This document shows, in pieces, positions 6,841 through 56,384 of a stretch of DNA of 64,000 nucleotides. The translations under genes and the position numbers were made by a program. The stretch comes from Capsulimonas corticalis (lineage in GTDB: Bacteria; Armatimonadota; Armatimonadia; Armatimonadales; Capsulimonadaceae). Below the pieces are notes generated by a model. The model had not been told where the DNA came from. It saw nothing but the letters and a program-made list of their open reading frames with translations, and made no database searches. The stretch is from contig NZ_AP025739.1 in NCBI RefSeq assembly GCF_003574315.2, positions 6,510,001-6,574,000 on the forward strand, given 5' to 3'. Positions within the stretch are counted from its first letter, which is position 1. Each line of letters begins with the position of its first letter.

Positions 6841-8382
6841 CTATTGAAGCTTCCATCGCTGCTGGGGTGCGCCGCTCCAGCCCCAGCCAATCAGCGACGC
6901 TCCATTCGTCGTGGTGCTGGAGCTGTCCAGCGCCAAACTGCTCTGCTGATTCCAGATCTTGTAAGAACCGTCCGACTGAACATCCACCCACCATCGCTGG
7001 TTGCTGTCGCGGCTCTGCGTCCACTGGATCATCTTCGTGCCGTTCGTGGTATTGCCGCCGGGATCGTCCAGGCCGAGCCAGCTAGACTGGCTGACGATGT
7101 TCCACGAAGTGTCCGCGTTCTGCGTGAAGTTCCAGATCTGGGTTTGACCGTAATTGAGGCCCCAGAGACCGACGACGCTGTTGGTGGCGGTGAGGCCGAG
7201 ACTGTCGATCGCCATGTTGTTCAAACCAATTATCGTGTGCCGGCCCCAGATGTTATTCGGCTGTGTGGCGGGGGTGTACTGCATCCACGCCGCGGCGTCG
7301 TCAAACCGATTCGTGTTGATCGAGTTGTCGTTAGGCGTCTGCTGGGTGAAGTTGCTCCAGCAGATGTTGTAGTCGGTGCGGCGGTGGCTCATAATGGCGT
7401 TCGCGTTGAGCACCATCCAGCTATAATATGTGCCCCACATGCGGTTGTCACGGCAGAAGTGACCCAGACCGCGAGCATACTCGTCCGACCAGGTGTTGGT
7501 GCCGCCGCCGGTGATGACGCCGCCGTTATACATGTTGTTCTTGACGTAATCGAGCGCCAGCTTGGCGTCGTTGTAGTATTGGACGTTTCCGGTGATCTGG
7601 TAGAGATAATTGGCGTAATCGGCGAACGTCCCCTGGTTATACGCCGTCGCATCGGCAGTGCTTGTATCGACATTGCCGCTGCGGTCGATCCACGAATACA
7701 CCTGCCCGCTGCTCGTGTTGAAGAGGTTGCTGCGCACCCACGCATAAATCTGTGTGGCGCGGTCCAGATACCATTGATCGTGGTTGCCCATGTAGATCAG
7801 GCAGGCCGTTTTGCCCAAGCTGTCGTTGGACAGCGGGGTTTTATTGATCGCTTGGCCCGCCGGGGTCATATTGGGCTGCTGTTCCCAGATTCCGCCGCCG
7901 TTGTACTGAGTGTCCCAGCCGCGAGACCACGCCATATCGAAACAGGACGTTCGAGCCTGGGAAAGAAGGTTGGCGTCGCCGGTGATCAGGTAACCGCGCG
8001 CCAGCATTGCGCCGATCCATCCAATGTCGTCGTTATAGCCATCCCAGGTGTATCCCGGCGGGAATTTCTGTAGGAAGGTGGTGCAGAGGGTCTCGACGAG
8101 CGCTTTGTGCGCGCTGCTGCCGGTGCGCTCGTAGGCGTCCTCGGCCACCATAATGTCCAGGGCTCCGGTCCAACCGCCGTCAAAAGTGCTGCCGTTGATT
8201 GATGTCTTGTAATAGTTGCCGTTCACCAAAAAGGCGCTGTTGAAGCCATTGAACACCGTGTCGGCGTCGCCCGATCCAATTGCCGACGCCTGCGGCGTCG
8301 CGCCGCAGCCCAGCCCGACAAGCAATGCCAGCAGTCCGGCCTGGGCAGTCGCTCTCGTCATTGAGAGCTTGATTTTCTTCAT
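6841..8382 (-). CDS. Secreted GH76 with C-terminal ricin-type lectin (copy 2)
   Basis: 513 residues from the ATG at 8382, chosen over an upstream in-frame ATG at 8475 because GGAGAT precedes it at good spacing and the signal peptide then starts correctly (MKKIKLSMTRA, cleavage near ASA). The GH76 signature is WDGYNDDIGWIG. The lectin trefoil is at about residues 390-513. It is paralogous over its full length to 5207-6748. Differences concentrate in the N-terminal signal, a Ser/Thr insert (DTSTADAT) and scattered synonymous sites, while one lectin-side tract is identical. It is the first gene of the transcript starting from the promoter at 8753-8781. Confidence 0.9.
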   Translation of the reverse strand: MKKIKLSMTRATAQAGLLALLVGLGCGATPQASAIGSGDADTVFNGFNSAFLVNGNYYKTSINGSTFDGGWTGALDIMVAEDAYERTGSSAHKALVETLCTTFLQKFPPGYTWDGYNDDIGWIGAMLARGYLITGDANLLSQARTSCFDMAWSRGWDTQYNGGGIWEQQPNMTPAGQAINKTPLSNDSLGKTACLIYMGNHDQWYLDRATQIYAWVRSNLFNTSSGQVYSWIDRSGNVDTSTADATAYNQGTFADYANYLYQITGNVQYYNDAKLALDYVKNNMYNGGVITGGGTNTWSDEYARGLGHFCRDNRMWGTYYSWMVLNANAIMSHRRTDYNICWSNFTQQTPNDNSINTNRFDDAAAWMQYTPATQPNNIWGRHTIIGLNNMAIDSLGLTATNSVVGLWGLNYGQTQIWNFTQNADTSWNIVSQSSWLGLDDPGGNTTNGTKMIQWTQSRDSNQRWWVDVQSDGSYKIWNQQSSLALDSSSTTTNGASLIGWGWSGAPQQRWKLQ

Positions 8383-8940
8383 CGTCGTTATCTCCTCGAG
8401 TACTATCTTCGCGGCTCCAAGCAGATCGCTTGTACTGTATGTCGTCATACGGTAAGCCATGGATCTGTATTGCAATTACTGCAATTAAAATATTAACATC
8501 AGCCGAAATCTTAGCGGCGCGGTGAACATCCTTTCCTGCTTGATCTTACATCCACTGAATTGCAATTCTATCTATTAAACTATCTGTAACGCGGCAAACG
8601 CTGATCCGGAGTTCCTGCAATCGTTACAAATCGCATATTTGCAAAGAACGGGCGGACAAAATAGCCATCCCTGGAAGTTCCTTCGCGGTCGAGCGCATTG
8701 CCGCAAAACATCAGCCGAGAGATCGTCACTCAATGATTGCGAATGCACCATAAGTGTATCACAGAATGGATCCATTGTCAACAAGAAAATCAAATACAAT
8801 CCATGATGGTACCAATCAAAGACAAGATGGATCCTTTCACTCACGAAATCGCTAATTTTACATCTCAAATTGGATATGTTCGGCGAGAAGAAAAGAGGTT
8901 CGTCGTCTGGCGCCACAAACACAGAGAATGGCGCCATTGC
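8383..8940. promoter_or_regulatory. AT-rich regulatory region upstream of the GH76-GH76-SGNH operon
   Basis: 558 nt without a convincing gene. It contains the minus-strand promoter at 8753-8781 and three ATGGNNCCAT-like sites (8766-8775, 8806-8815, 8827-8836). The leader from promoter to start codon is about 360 nt, long enough for further control. I see no other structure I can name. Confidence 0.6.
8753..8781 (-). promoter_or_regulatory. Sigma70-type promoter for the GH76 operon, with operator in spacer
   Basis: On the minus strand TTGACA (8776-8781) and TACACT (8753-8758) are separated by 17 nt. The spacer begins with the perfect palindrome ATGGATCCAT (8766-8775). The downstream half (GTGATACAcTTATGGTGC) is nearly the same as at 2089-2107, showing that the two promoters are homologous. 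Confidence 0.8.
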
Positions 8941-49568: not shown

Positions 49569-49644
49569 ACGAACGATAAAATCCCTTTGGAATTAGACCT
49601 GACGGAATCAGACATGATTGCCGAACTCGACTCGGCAAATAACT

Positions 49645-50946
49645 ATGAATGACAAGCAAGTACAGATTCAGCATATCTTCAAGATGATCGATGCGGATGA
49701 AGCGGCGGCGATCGCGAAGGCGTTCGCAATTGTCGAAAGCGTCTCCGAAACAGACTTATCGTATAACATGCGTTATGTGAATAATGCCCATTCGATTTCT
49801 CGGAGCATAGATGATCGAACAGGCGAGACGATCATGACCTATGCTGTTTCGAAAGAAAAAATCGGAATCGTAAAATTATTACGCGAACACTTTGCAGATA
49901 TCAATGCGCCGAGGCGCGATGGAAAGACGCCGCTGGCGGTCGCCTACGAGCGCGGCGCGGTGGAAATGGTTCGGTTTCTGTTAAGCCGAAACGCGGATTC
50001 TCGCCTTGTCTCACTGACAGTATCATCTCCGTCCGCAAATCAATGCGAAGCGGCGAAGCTAATTTCCGATCGAATGACGATCAACAATAAATTTCCCTGC
50101 CATTGCTGTGGATATCTTGTGAATGAGTACATCGGGTATTCCGAAATCTGCCGAATCTGTCACTGGGAAGAAGATGGGTCAATGCTTCGATGGCCTTATC
50201 GCGGCGGCGGACCGAATCACGTCTCGTTGATGGAGGCTCAGCGCAACTATCAAGACTTTGGCGCAAGTGAAGAGAGACGTCGTCAAAGGGCGTCTCTCCC
50301 TTTGTCGACAGACGTTCGGGATCGCGGCTGGCGGCCGATTTCGCTCGAAATCGATAACTTTGAGCGGAGTGATAAAACGTATGGGCCAATATTCGATTCG
50401 ATCTCTGAGTATTATTGGCGCGATAGCTTTTGGCTTAAAAACGAAGCTCGCTACAAAGATGTGGGGGTGTTTCGCGTTATTCCCCTGCGCGGCGTGCTGC
50501 CGATTGAGTTCGGAATGACGCGCAAAGAAGCGCGCGAGGTCATCGGCTTACCAGTATCTCCATACGTACGGCCATCGGTCAGTCCCTATCTTTCGGATAC
50601 TTATTTGAATCGCGGCTTCCAGGTCTTCTTTGACGCCGACAACCGTGTGGAGTTTATCGAACTGAGGAATTCGGTGAGCGCCGTCTACAAAGGCTTCTCG
50701 GTGCTGGAAACGAAGGCGACGAGTGTCGTCAACTCTGTATCAAAGGATGCGCCATACGATGAGAGTGATCCTAAGTTAGGATACCGTTACACATTCCCGG
50801 ATCTGGAAATGCGCCTTTGGCGGAATCACATCGCGAAAGAACAATACGATCCTGACGACTATTCTGGAATATATTTCTTAACAATGGGACTTGGGAAACC
50901 AGGATATTACAGCAATGCCTCGGAAATCCCGGAAATCGAAGAATGA
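49645..50946 (+). CDS. Ankyrin + CPCC cysteine-rich domain protein (immunity-like)
   Basis: 433 residues from the ATG at 49645. Residues ~55-125 hold ankyrin repeats (GETIMTYAVSKEKIGIVKLL, DGKTPLAVAYERGAVEMVRF). Residues ~150-205 match the cysteine-rich CPCC domain: FPCHCCGYLVNEYIG, EICRICHWEEDG, PNHVSLMEAQRNYQDFGASE. The last ~160 residues form a third domain, with VLPIEFGMTRKEAREVIGLP and a following strand set like barrel-type immunity proteins. CPCC domains are known from polymorphic-toxin immunity loci. The three-part fusion suggests a poly-immunity protein; no toxin gene is adjacent. A HEAT-like gene follows. Confidence 0.78.
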   Translation: MNDKQVQIQHIFKMIDADEAAAIAKAFAIVESVSETDLSYNMRYVNNAHSISRSIDDRTGETIMTYAVSKEKIGIVKLLREHFADINAPRRDGKTPLAVAYERGAVEMVRFLLSRNADSRLVSLTVSSPSANQCEAAKLISDRMTINNKFPCHCCGYLVNEYIGYSEICRICHWEEDGSMLRWPYRGGGPNHVSLMEAQRNYQDFGASEERRRQRASLPLSTDVRDRGWRPISLEIDNFERSDKTYGPIFDSISEYYWRDSFWLKNEARYKDVGVFRVIPLRGVLPIEFGMTRKEAREVIGLPVSPYVRPSVSPYLSDTYLNRGFQVFFDADNRVEFIELRNSVSAVYKGFSVLETKATSVVNSVSKDAPYDESDPKLGYRYTFPDLEMRLWRNHIAKEQYDPDDYSGIYFLTMGLGKPGYYSNASEIPEIEE

Positions 50947-51042
50947 ATTCGTTGTGCGTTTATGGAAACTGAGTCTCCCAAGTATCGGCCGCGCACGAAC
51001 AAACATGGTGCGCCGGTATCGCAAGGAAGCGAGGCTGTTGTC

Positions 51043-51543
51043 ATGAACCACGAGGAGGCGATCGATTTCTTACGGCGGCATCAGCCGATGCCGTGCGATG
51101 AGGAATTGACGCGGGAACTCATCGATACCTATGAAGAAGTCCGACTCTTTTTCATGGAGAATCTCGATCCGCGCTGTGTGCCGCTGTTTCTGAATTCCTT
51201 CGGCGAAGGCGATGGTCTGGGGGTGTACCAGCTGGTCGACTTTGTGATCGCACAGTATCCCGACGACATCGTTATTCCAGACCTGGTGCGCGCGCTGCAA
51301 AGCCCGCATAAGGGAGTGGCGTACTGGTCCGCGCAGATCGCCGCCTGCTTCCCGTCGGAGGCGTCTCTGCCCGCACTTACGCGCTTGATCCAGAGCGACG
51401 ACCCGGATCTGCGCGGCGCGGCCATTACCGCAGTGGACCTGACGCCCAGCGCCAGCCGCTCCAAAATCTTATTCGATGCGCTGGAAAACGAACGGGACCC
51501 CACCCTCATTCGGCTGATCAAAAGCGCTATTGAAGCGATTTGA
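51043..51543 (+). CDS. HEAT-repeat protein
   Basis: 166 residues from the ATG at 51043 (GAGG upstream); an earlier in-frame ATG at 50962 has no ribosome site. Helical pairs of HEAT type: VIPDLVRALQSPHKGVAYWS, ASLPALTRLIQSDDPDLRGA and KILFDALENERDPTLIRLIK. The N-terminal NHEEAIDFLRRHQPMPCDEE segment is separate. Likely a binding scaffold; may be co-transcribed with the ankyrin-CPCC gene. Confidence 0.7.
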   Translation: MNHEEAIDFLRRHQPMPCDEELTRELIDTYEEVRLFFMENLDPRCVPLFLNSFGEGDGLGVYQLVDFVIAQYPDDIVIPDLVRALQSPHKGVAYWSAQIAACFPSEASLPALTRLIQSDDPDLRGAAITAVDLTPSASRSKILFDALENERDPTLIRLIKSAIEAI

Positions 51544-53831: not shown

Positions 53832-55259
53832 ATGCAAACGACCGCTACGCCGCCTGTCGCAAGAGAAACGCATTTAAGTCCCGATCGATCCGAGCCTACT
53901 CGTTATCTCTGCGCATCCGCCTATCTAAACCCTGTATTTCGATCTCAATTTCTTGCGCACTTAAGTAGTCCATACCATACGTTAGGAAGAGCATATGGTT
54001 TGGACCTTCATCGAATTGCCCAGCATTGCCTGAAAGCAGAACGACGCTTAATTGACAAGGAACTAGTTCTCTTTGGTTTATTTGTCATGTGCGGTTTAAA
54101 CTTCGCTCACAACCCGCAAATTTTAACAGCATCCTGTCTTATTGCTGCAATTGTATTACAAGTGAATGACTACGTGGTACGTTATAAAATTGCCGCCGGA
54201 AAGTTTAGTAGGAATACATTTGCTCCTTCGGAACCACTGGAACCGTTGCCGCCAAGGATCAATGACGCAGTCCAGCACGCCGAGCAAGAGCAGGTGGGAA
54301 ATCTGGTGGTTTACGGTGGCTTTCTTCCATTTGTCGGTTTCGGATCATCAGTCAAGGCATGGTCGTTTGGCGTCAACATAAAGGACGGGAAAAAAACACT
54401 GGGAAGCATGCTGAAACCGAAAGAATTTGATTTGACGCAGCTTCAGCAAAAGGTTTCCAGCAGTCTTGCGTTATTGGGGATCGCAGGAGTATACGAGGAA
54501 GAAGTCGCGTTCGTAAGTGGAACGGCGATTCGCAGCAAGCCATCACTGCTCCCGAATATCTGCGGGCGGCCAGCCACTGTTATACCAGAGGAAGAAGTTG
54601 CAGGTGCTGAAGGCGAGGATGATCAATTGCGCCGATATCGATGCCTCCGCGTGCCGGCATGGAGCGGCGAAGTCGCGGTCGCTCTGCTATACCGATTCCG
54701 AGTGATGGGGGACAACCTCTATGTGGAAGCTAACTGGCGCGGTCTCCTGCCGATTGCTAAACAATATCAGAATGTCGACAACATACCAAATAAACCGCGA
54801 TTGATGGTTCTGTTCTCACGATTTGTGTTAAATGTGATCATAGCGCCGTTTTACATGGCCCTCTCGCCGTTTATTATCTTAATCAGGATCATAAATGCTT
54901 ATGAAGGCTATCGCCGCCGGGCGACATTGAAGGCGTCTATTTTGGACAATCCCTTGTTCAATTATGGAGCCGATATTTCACTTCGAGAGCGATTTTCGAG
55001 TGATGAATATGAAAAATATTTTCAATATTTAGACAAAGAAATGTACGTGAAGATTATTGACCGCGAGTTTCTGGATGAAATCGTCAATTTTCTAGACGAG
55101 CATAATATCGATACGTCCATCATACGTGAGCGTGCAGAAGCGATATTGAACCATGGAGTTATTGTGTCGGGCGGCAATATTAACGCTAAGAATGTTGCTG
55201 CTGGCCAAGGAGCAATCGCGGGTGTGATGAAGGCAGTCGGCTCACATGCCAAAGGATAA
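53832..55259 (+). CDS. Membrane protein with C-terminal INAxNVAxG motif
   Basis: 475 residues, ATG at 53832 behind AAGGAGG. Two membrane helices at ~75-115 (LVLFGLFVMCGLNFAHNPQI, ILTASCLIAAIVLQVNDYVV). A soluble domain ~150-330 (VGNLVVYGGFLPFVGFGSSV) follows, then a third hydrophobic segment near 340 (VLNVIIAPFYMALSPFIILI). The end carries HGVIVSGGNINAKNVAAGQG, a short strand motif often found in adaptor regions of bacterial conflict proteins. The small gene that follows carries the same kind of motif. GC is clearly lower than in neighbouring genes, which suggests horizontal gain. Function unknown. Confidence 0.7.
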   Translation: MQTTATPPVARETHLSPDRSEPTRYLCASAYLNPVFRSQFLAHLSSPYHTLGRAYGLDLHRIAQHCLKAERRLIDKELVLFGLFVMCGLNFAHNPQILTASCLIAAIVLQVNDYVVRYKIAAGKFSRNTFAPSEPLEPLPPRINDAVQHAEQEQVGNLVVYGGFLPFVGFGSSVKAWSFGVNIKDGKKTLGSMLKPKEFDLTQLQQKVSSSLALLGIAGVYEEEVAFVSGTAIRSKPSLLPNICGRPATVIPEEEVAGAEGEDDQLRRYRCLRVPAWSGEVAVALLYRFRVMGDNLYVEANWRGLLPIAKQYQNVDNIPNKPRLMVLFSRFVLNVIIAPFYMALSPFIILIRIINAYEGYRRRATLKASILDNPLFNYGADISLRERFSSDEYEKYFQYLDKEMYVKIIDREFLDEIVNFLDEHNIDTSIIRERAEAILNHGVIVSGGNINAKNVAAGQGAIAGVMKAVGSHAKG

Positions 55260-55265
55260 ACCAAT

Positions 55266-55652
55266 ATGCCAGGAGAGCAACTTCGAGAAAATAGTGGTGT
55301 TATTGCAGCGACTATTAACGCCACGAACATTGCTACGGGAGCCAATTCGCATGCTGGAGACGTCTATGACCAATCGATAGGGGCGGTAACCAAAGATGCG
55401 GTTCTGAAAAAATTTGACGCAGTGATTTCTCTTCTGTCGCAAACGGGAGCATCAGAAATGAGCGTCGACGACCGCGACGAACTGATAGCAAGCGCAAAAT
55501 CAGCAAAAGACGAGCTCTCCAGCGAATCACCAAACAAAAGAAAAATTATGCCTATTATCAATGACATTGTTGATACCGTTAAGTCTGTAGGCAGCATTGC
55601 ATCAGCCGCTACGGCCCTACTCGGCGTCGCAAATCAATTCTTCGGTAAGTGA
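55266..55652 (+). CDS. Small partner protein with INAxNIAxG-like motif
   Basis: 128 residues, 6 nt after the membrane gene. The N-terminus SGVIAATINATNIATGANSH repeats the motif of its partner's C-terminus (NINAKNVAAGQG). The rest is helical: KDAVLKKFDAVISLLSQTGA, DDRDELIASAKSAKDEL and a hydrophobic end (SAATALLGVANQFFG). It is likely that the two proteins bind each other through the shared strand motif. A strong terminator follows at 55705, so the two genes form a closed unit. Confidence 0.7.
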   Translation: MPGEQLRENSGVIAATINATNIATGANSHAGDVYDQSIGAVTKDAVLKKFDAVISLLSQTGASEMSVDDRDELIASAKSAKDELSSESPNKRKIMPIINDIVDTVKSVGSIASAATALLGVANQFFGK

Positions 55653-55704
55653 TCCTTGTTCATGATGTTCGCCACAAAAGTCGGTGGATCGTCACAAAAT
55701 CACC

Positions 55705-55743
55705 ACGCCTTCGGATTTGGATAACTTCCAAATCCGAAGGCGT
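55705..55743. terminator. Terminator closing the two-gene unit
   Basis: 16-bp perfect stem ACGCCTTCGGATTTGG / CCAAATCCGAAGGCGT with a 7-nt loop and ATTTGCT after it. It also serves the convergent PEP-CTERM gene. Confidence 0.8.
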
Positions 55744-55799
55744 ATTTGCTGCGCACTCACATTCCTGCCATACGACGGACATTGAAGGCAAACGGGATA

Positions 55800-56384
55800 C
55801 TAACGGTTCGACCGGCGTTTGCGGCGCAGAGCCGCCGCGCCGATACAGACGGCGCCGACGCCCAGCGCCGCGAGCGAATTCGGCTCGGGAACGGTGGAGG
55901 CGGGCGTCACGCTGACATTGTCGAGTTCATAGTACGCCGGATCCTGCCGTCCGGAAAACTGGATCGCCGTGAATGGGTCGGACGCCGTTTCGTTGAAGTA
56001 ATAGTGCGTGAAGGAAAAACCGTTGGCGTCCACCATCTTGATTAACGCGCGTCCGCCGAAAAAGACGGAAAAATCGTTGTGCACGCCGCCGTCGTTCTTC
56101 AGGTCAAACTGAAAGCTATACTCCTTGCCCGGCGTGGTGGGAATGAGCTGCGTGATGGTGGTGTCGGAGCCGAGCGCGCCAAAGTAGGCGCCATAAGCGC
56201 CCGAGCGGGCGTCGGAGCCGCCGTCAACGCCGATAAAACGCGGATCGCCCAGAATCGTCCAATTGGTAAAATTGCCAGTTTCAAAGCCGCCGTTCCGCAC
56301 CAGATTGGCGTGCGCGGCGAGAGGCGTAAAAGCACAGGTCAAGGCGAGCACAAGCGCAGCGCCAGTCTTGTTGATTGTCGTCAT
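55800..56384 (-). CDS. Secreted PEP-CTERM protein with carbohydrate-binding-like domain
   Basis: 194 residues. Signal peptide LVLALTCAFTPLAAHA. The mature domain is a jelly roll of the kind that starts NLVRNGGFETGNFTNWTILG and ends with YYELDNVSVTP, as in many PEP-CTERM proteins with CBM-like folds. The C-terminus VPEPNSLAALGVGAVCIGAA plus LRRKRR is the PEP-CTERM sorting signal. Predicted to be handled by an exosortase and placed in extracellular matrix. The 255 nt upstream are AT-rich without a gene. Confidence 0.88.
   Translation of the reverse strand: MTTINKTGAALVLALTCAFTPLAAHANLVRNGGFETGNFTNWTILGDPRFIGVDGGSDARSGAYGAYFGALGSDTTITQLIPTTPGKEYSFQFDLKNDGGVHNDFSVFFGGRALIKMVDANGFSFTHYYFNETASDPFTAIQFSGRQDPAYYELDNVSVTPASTVPEPNSLAALGVGAVCIGAAALRRKRRSNR

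Follow-up and report, generated by a model that had tools for sequence, protein, structure and literature searches.

A membrane protein and a small partner joined by a private terminal motif: a candidate NLR-free signalling pair in Capsulimonas corticalis

Bacterial amyloid signalling has so far been defined around NLR receptors. Dyrka et al. (2020) reportedly described the bacterial amyloid signalling sequences BASS1-10 in NLR/Bell pairs. According to a review of these NLR/Bell pairs, BASS motifs pair adjacent genes and are also found with CHAT and TIR domains (PMC7889193); their phyletic range comprises actinomycetes and filamentous cyanobacteria (PMC9815663). The two-gene unit described here, together with its relatives, resembles these systems in several respects. 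The products of adjacent genes share a motif of ~20-40 residues, Gly/Asn-rich (Gly/Asn/Gln-rich overall), which lies at disordered ends and at opposite termini. There are many motif families, alike within pairs and unlike between pairs, TIR and CHAT are among the associated domains, and the range of the membrane family (actinomycetes, filamentous cyanobacteria) equals that reported for BASS (PMC9815663). However, no NLR is present here. The constant partner is instead an unannotated multi-TM family with a C-terminal motif, and the variable partner carries its motif at the N terminus. In known systems the C-terminal motif is that of the Bell effector, whereas here it is that of the membrane protein, which counts against the receptor reading that we favor below. 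Other NLR-receptor systems with motif-coupled adjacent genes also use a PNP_UDP effector and have tandem motif copies in some members, but their receptors are NLRs and their sequence similarity to the present motifs is sporadic. Resemblance to three published amyloid-signalling peptides is likewise sporadic, a further point against our reading, and amounts to no family assignment.

Two folded or membrane-bound alternatives bear comparison. The homotypic adaptors EAD, Death-like and TRADD-N link sensors to TIR, CHAT and PNP domains in multicellular bacteria (PMC8195603, PMC7159879). These are folded adaptor domains in systems built around NTPases, in contrast to the short disordered motif of ~25 aa found here, where no NTPase is encoded; an EAD match was sought for the window proteins and none was found. 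The SLATT 2TM proteins of nucleotide-dependent systems (PMC7159879) similarly place a TM hairpin protein beside nucleotide-related effectors, but the membrane protein studied here is larger, with a folded domain and a motif tail, and none of 36 members of its family matched the SLATT Pfam model at E <= 0.05. No PADLOC-listed system matched both genes.

The gene pair and its predicted proteins

The window, the whole 64,000-nucleotide stretch that was analyzed, spans positions 6510001-6574000 of a 7.65 Mb genome in one contig. The features of the pair are as follows.

53832-55259 (+): gene for the 475-aa membrane protein, a putative receptor or transducer bearing the C-terminal motif (ORF; >80 relatives; AlphaFold2 pLDDT 89.5, pTM 0.86)
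54006-54203 (+): pair of long hydrophobic helices near the N terminus, aa 59-90 and 95-124, predicted to form a TM hairpin (model; hydropathy peaks 1.55 and 1.69)
54303-54746 (+): candidate sensing domain, an alpha/beta fold flanked by the membrane segments, with strands inside aa 158-305 (model)
54801-54947 (+): long hydrophobic helix, aa 324-372 (49 residues), predicted membrane segment (model; hydropathy peak 2.13)
55149-55223 (+): C-terminal motif NHGVIVSGGNINAKNVAAGQGAIAG, aa 440-464 of the membrane protein (alignment to the head; pLDDT < 50 from aa 444; pattern match)
55266-55652 (+): gene for the 128-aa small partner, a putative effector (ORF; relatives with the same position and tag)
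55290-55358 (+): motif NSGVIAATINATNIATGANSHAG near the N terminus of the small protein, aa 9-31 (alignment to the tail; disordered in the model; pattern match)
55392-55643 (+): four-helix bundle, aa 43-126, last helix moderately hydrophobic (AlphaFold2, mostly pLDDT > 90; hydropathy 1.33 at aa 104-122)
55704-55744 (no strand assigned): inverted repeat of 17-18 bp, transcription terminator (z = -8.9; T-tail recognized on the minus strand)

An earlier note, made from the sequence, had described two genes 6 nt apart and more AT-rich than their flanks. The ORF coordinates place the stop of the membrane gene 6 nt before the start of the small gene. GC content is 47% in each gene of the pair as compared to 59.7% for the whole window, and GC3 is 46% in the membrane gene and 43% in the small gene, against 79% and 74% in the flanking genes. 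The same note had the pair closed by a strong terminator, which is right as to the strength of the hairpin and uncertain as to its direction. Because the T-rich tail recognized by the terminator scan is on the minus strand, the hairpin suits the convergent gene at 55800-56384 (-) at least as well, and it may terminate in both directions. The product of this convergent gene is secreted and ends in a PEP-CTERM-like sequence, VPEPNSLAALGVGAVCIGAAALRRKR. A further low-GC stretch, at 49618-51543 and ~2.3 kb before the pair, encodes an ankyrin and CPCC-type Cys-rich protein and a HEAT-repeat protein, and may be a second acquired block. A search for recognized defence genes around the window copy of the pair found none, which counts against the favored reading.

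In both models the motif forms a disordered end on a folded domain: the disordered tail of the membrane protein (aa 444-475) holds nearly the whole motif, and disordered aa 9-36 of the small protein include it. The membrane family matched no Pfam or NCBIfam model (36 members in the family-wide Pfam search), NTPases included, and had no match in PHROGs, one weak match to PADLOC among 36 members, and nothing significant in the PDB by sequence. Structure searches gave no firm relative for either window protein. The best values for the membrane model with Foldseek/VIA were E 0.045 and Z 5.2 (KICSTOR/SZT2, KA1, START-like), and the model carries a hint that the alpha/beta domain could be helix-grip-like and possibly lipid-related. 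A literature search covering non-subscription papers returned no description of the family, and the gene tables of the plasmid carrying one relative (L007) label both genes hypothetical.

For the small protein, structure comparison returned generic up-down bundles and no specific relative, which counts against the favored reading, and PDB sequence matches were coiled or helical chance matches. A Pfam Goodbye match (E 0.07) was too weak to retain, and PADLOC gave weak matches to PDC-M14B only (E 6e-4). Across the family, 12 of 27 small partners match DUF5955 (PF19380) and 12 of 27 match the C-terminal part of PDC-M14B; a literature search on PDC-M14 found no paper. The ordinary form of DUF5955, by contrast, is near-universal in Streptomyces, with the motif absent in the copies read, and the window protein has no DUF5955 match; DUF5955 was set aside as a key to function because its main Streptomyces members are without the motif. 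Our preferred guess is that the small four-helix partner is a Bell/HeLo-like membrane-damaging effector. It is a four-helix bundle with a hydrophobic last helix, yet its motif is N-terminal, whereas that of a Bell domain is C-terminal.

Pair-specific motifs and exchangeable partners

The tail of the membrane protein, GVIVSGGNINAKNVAAGQG, and the head of the small protein, GVIAATINATNIATGAN, read as the earlier note had quoted them, and N440-G464 of the former aligns with N9-G31 of the latter over ~25 residues. A degenerate DNA pattern for INAxN(V/I)AxG has exactly two matches in the 7.65 Mb genome, the membrane tail and the small-protein head, and the reversed-pattern control has no match in the same genome. 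With the family-wide test given below, these counts confirm that the motif is common to both products. Taken alone, the score of the window pair is modest (47; z = 4.3 against shuffled heads, with 2 of 300 shuffles reaching 47), and the window tail scores equally well or higher against a few foreign heads, which is again unfavorable to our reading.

For the family-wide comparison, the partner ORF downstream of each membrane gene was picked by codon-position GC, not by motif, and 32 non-redundant pairs were defined as those with membrane cores < 60% identical. Across these pairs, the mean score of a tail with its own head was 74.6 versus 29.3 for mismatched pairs. The sum of own-pair scores was 2387, and the maximum reached in 100,000 permutations was 1391. 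The own head ranked first for 22 of the 32 tails. Tails also match their own heads (average 74.5) better than they match the tails of homologous membrane proteins (37.2). It should be noted that the best foreign tail averages 85.9, above the own head, which counts against the favored reading; the 32 pairs still include near relatives, which explains this value. The motif thus differs from pair to pair and matches inside each pair, with tail-head scores of at least 45 in 70 of 76 loci. This insulation is seen within one genome in Nonomuraea zeae, whose two pairs score 82 and 66 with their own partners and 24 and 19 when crossed. Pairs whose small gene is upstream (L107) or divergent (L010) retain the match, which therefore does not stem from duplication of a gene junction. 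L056, L088, L071, L102, and L103, which have either no motif partner or no motif, are exceptions and weigh against the favored reading. The last two are membrane-protein paralogues in TIR-pair genomes, and their C-termini have no motif.

The motif has a median length of 27 aa and a tail-head identity of 56%. It is enriched in Asn (6.5x) and Gly (2.5x) and depleted in Leu (0.1x), and charged residues make up 8.6% versus 23.3%. Two or more tandem motif copies occur in the small partners L069 (7236-7766), L081 (7754-8293), and L006 (6488-6844), reminiscent of the HET-s r1/r2 repeats. A search within ~6 kb of the pairs for a third motif-bearing gene, such as an NLR, gave no credible match.

The partner changes while the membrane protein stays. 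Small helical proteins are found at most loci, including the window. At 23 loci the partner bears the signature of a CAP12/Pycsar TIR domain (PF10137), Pfam-confirmed in four with E values down to 2e-27. A PNP_UDP_1 domain (PF01048, E 2e-13) is present at L045 and a CHAT domain (PF12770, E 5.6e-11) at the Fischerella locus L009. In the latter, from Fischerella muscicola (7522-8400), the motif NTENQGIQMYGGTISAENIA and the CHAT domain are not in the same frame, which means either a broken gene or an assembly error. In the partner at L058 (7839-8555), the motif YIGNNSGTIGQFGGRGNTY precedes a domain of ~190 aa that matches neither Pfam nor PHROGs and is nucleotide-cyclase-like by eye. TIR, CHAT, and PNP are known effectors in bacterial conflict systems (PMC8195603, PMC7159879, PMC7889193), and, judging from these established families, they would act as effectors here. 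The earlier proposal that the motif acts as an adaptor element is upheld by its pair specificity, by the exchangeable partner domains, and by the presence among them of these standard conflict-system effectors.

Distribution and origin of the membrane family

The first relatives of the membrane protein, identified by tblastn, were in Streptomyces and Nonomuraea replicons. A profile-based scan of genome contigs revealed 134 relatives, 80 of which were retained, from three cyanobacteria and many actinomycetes; viral contigs held none. The family occurs in two of 291 genomes from the window's own phylum and in three of 386 in the cyanobacterial sample, and is commoner in filamentous actinomycetes than in either. 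In the tree, the window protein clusters with the cyanobacterial members (99/95) on a long branch. Base composition, the lack of the family in 289 of the phylum's 291 genomes, and the cyanobacterial nearest relatives support a horizontal gain of the pair, as the earlier note had suspected. Unpaired homologues in housekeeping contexts, which that note named as a contrary outcome, were not seen; homologues are almost always paired and have no fixed housekeeping context. The second member in the window's phylum, L090 (853-3232), has the tail NNFGIINQSGSISGGAIV, the head NKGVINYKGTISGGIHV, and a different helical partner domain.

Proposed coupling and its alternatives

The tested features of the pairs all fit amyloid-signalling systems except for the NLR, and we therefore propose a membrane receptor that templates the motif of its partner. 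Our current hypothesis, which we consider probable by analogy with described systems, is that the two genes encode an NLR-free module of the amyloid-signalling-motif type, made up of a membrane receptor or transducer and a motif-coupled effector. The TM helices and the folded alpha/beta domain of the membrane protein would sense an event taking place at the membrane, and the disordered tail at its C terminus would present the beta-arch-like motif of ~25 residues. Upon activation, clustered tails could template the matching N-terminal motif of the partner into a polymer, and the attached domain (a four-helix bundle here; TIR, CHAT, or PNP in relatives) would become clustered and active. The likely outcome would be that the cell stops growing or dies and thereby protects its kin, for instance from phage. 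The amyloid step is modeled on BASS and HET-s, and the roles of the membrane protein as sensor and of defence as outcome are likewise putative. The membrane protein is placed on the receptor side mainly because the partner domains exchange while it stays. The earlier note had suggested a membrane-linked defence or signalling pair, which the findings support in part; the present proposal of amyloid-signalling-type receptor/effector coupling is more precise.

The same pair specificity would also result if the motifs associated by beta-strand augmentation or folded together to give a stable hetero-complex, as a constitutive docking tag or a toxin-antitoxin-like restraint, with no amyloid templating. 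We regard this as unlikely, though a serious contender: the strands of the two proteins are nearly identical, with much Gly and Asn and little charge or Leu, and this suits self-templating better, as do the tandem copies in the heads of L069, L081, and L006, which are less expected of a lock-and-key fit. Motif coupling could instead run in the reverse direction, with the membrane protein as a Bell-like, pore-forming executioner and the partner as co-effector or trigger. A membrane location combined with a C-terminal motif is indeed the Bell arrangement (PMC7889193), and no sensing domain is obvious in the small partner. However, the partners include enzymes that are effectors themselves, and the membrane protein is large and has a conserved folded domain, unlike a bundle of ~100 residues, so that we find this reversal rather improbable.

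That the resemblance is due to chance, or to a duplicated low-complexity end without a common function, is very improbable. Short Gly/Asn-rich ends do recur by chance, and the window pair by itself reaches only z = 4.3. At the level of the family, chance resemblance is already refuted: it is at odds with the 100,000 permutations, the insulation within one genome, and a match that survives rearranged gene order and the use of non-homologous partners.

Returning to the receptor/effector reading, we advance tentatively, as somewhat short of an even prospect, the broader proposal that these proteins are an undescribed membrane-receptor family of multicellular bacteria. Such receptors would pass a signal by prion-like templating to TIR, CHAT (caspase-like), PNP, and four-helix effectors, with a private motif insulating each pair, in a pathway that would start at the membrane and need no NLR. 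If this is true, the motif would be a general, portable wiring device, used on the same principle by a membrane family and enzymatic effectors, and the membrane proteins would be a new candidate sensor family outside Pfam, NCBIfam, and PADLOC. The family would also supply dozens of naturally occurring motif pairs, insulated from one another, on which the encoding of amyloid specificity could be tested.
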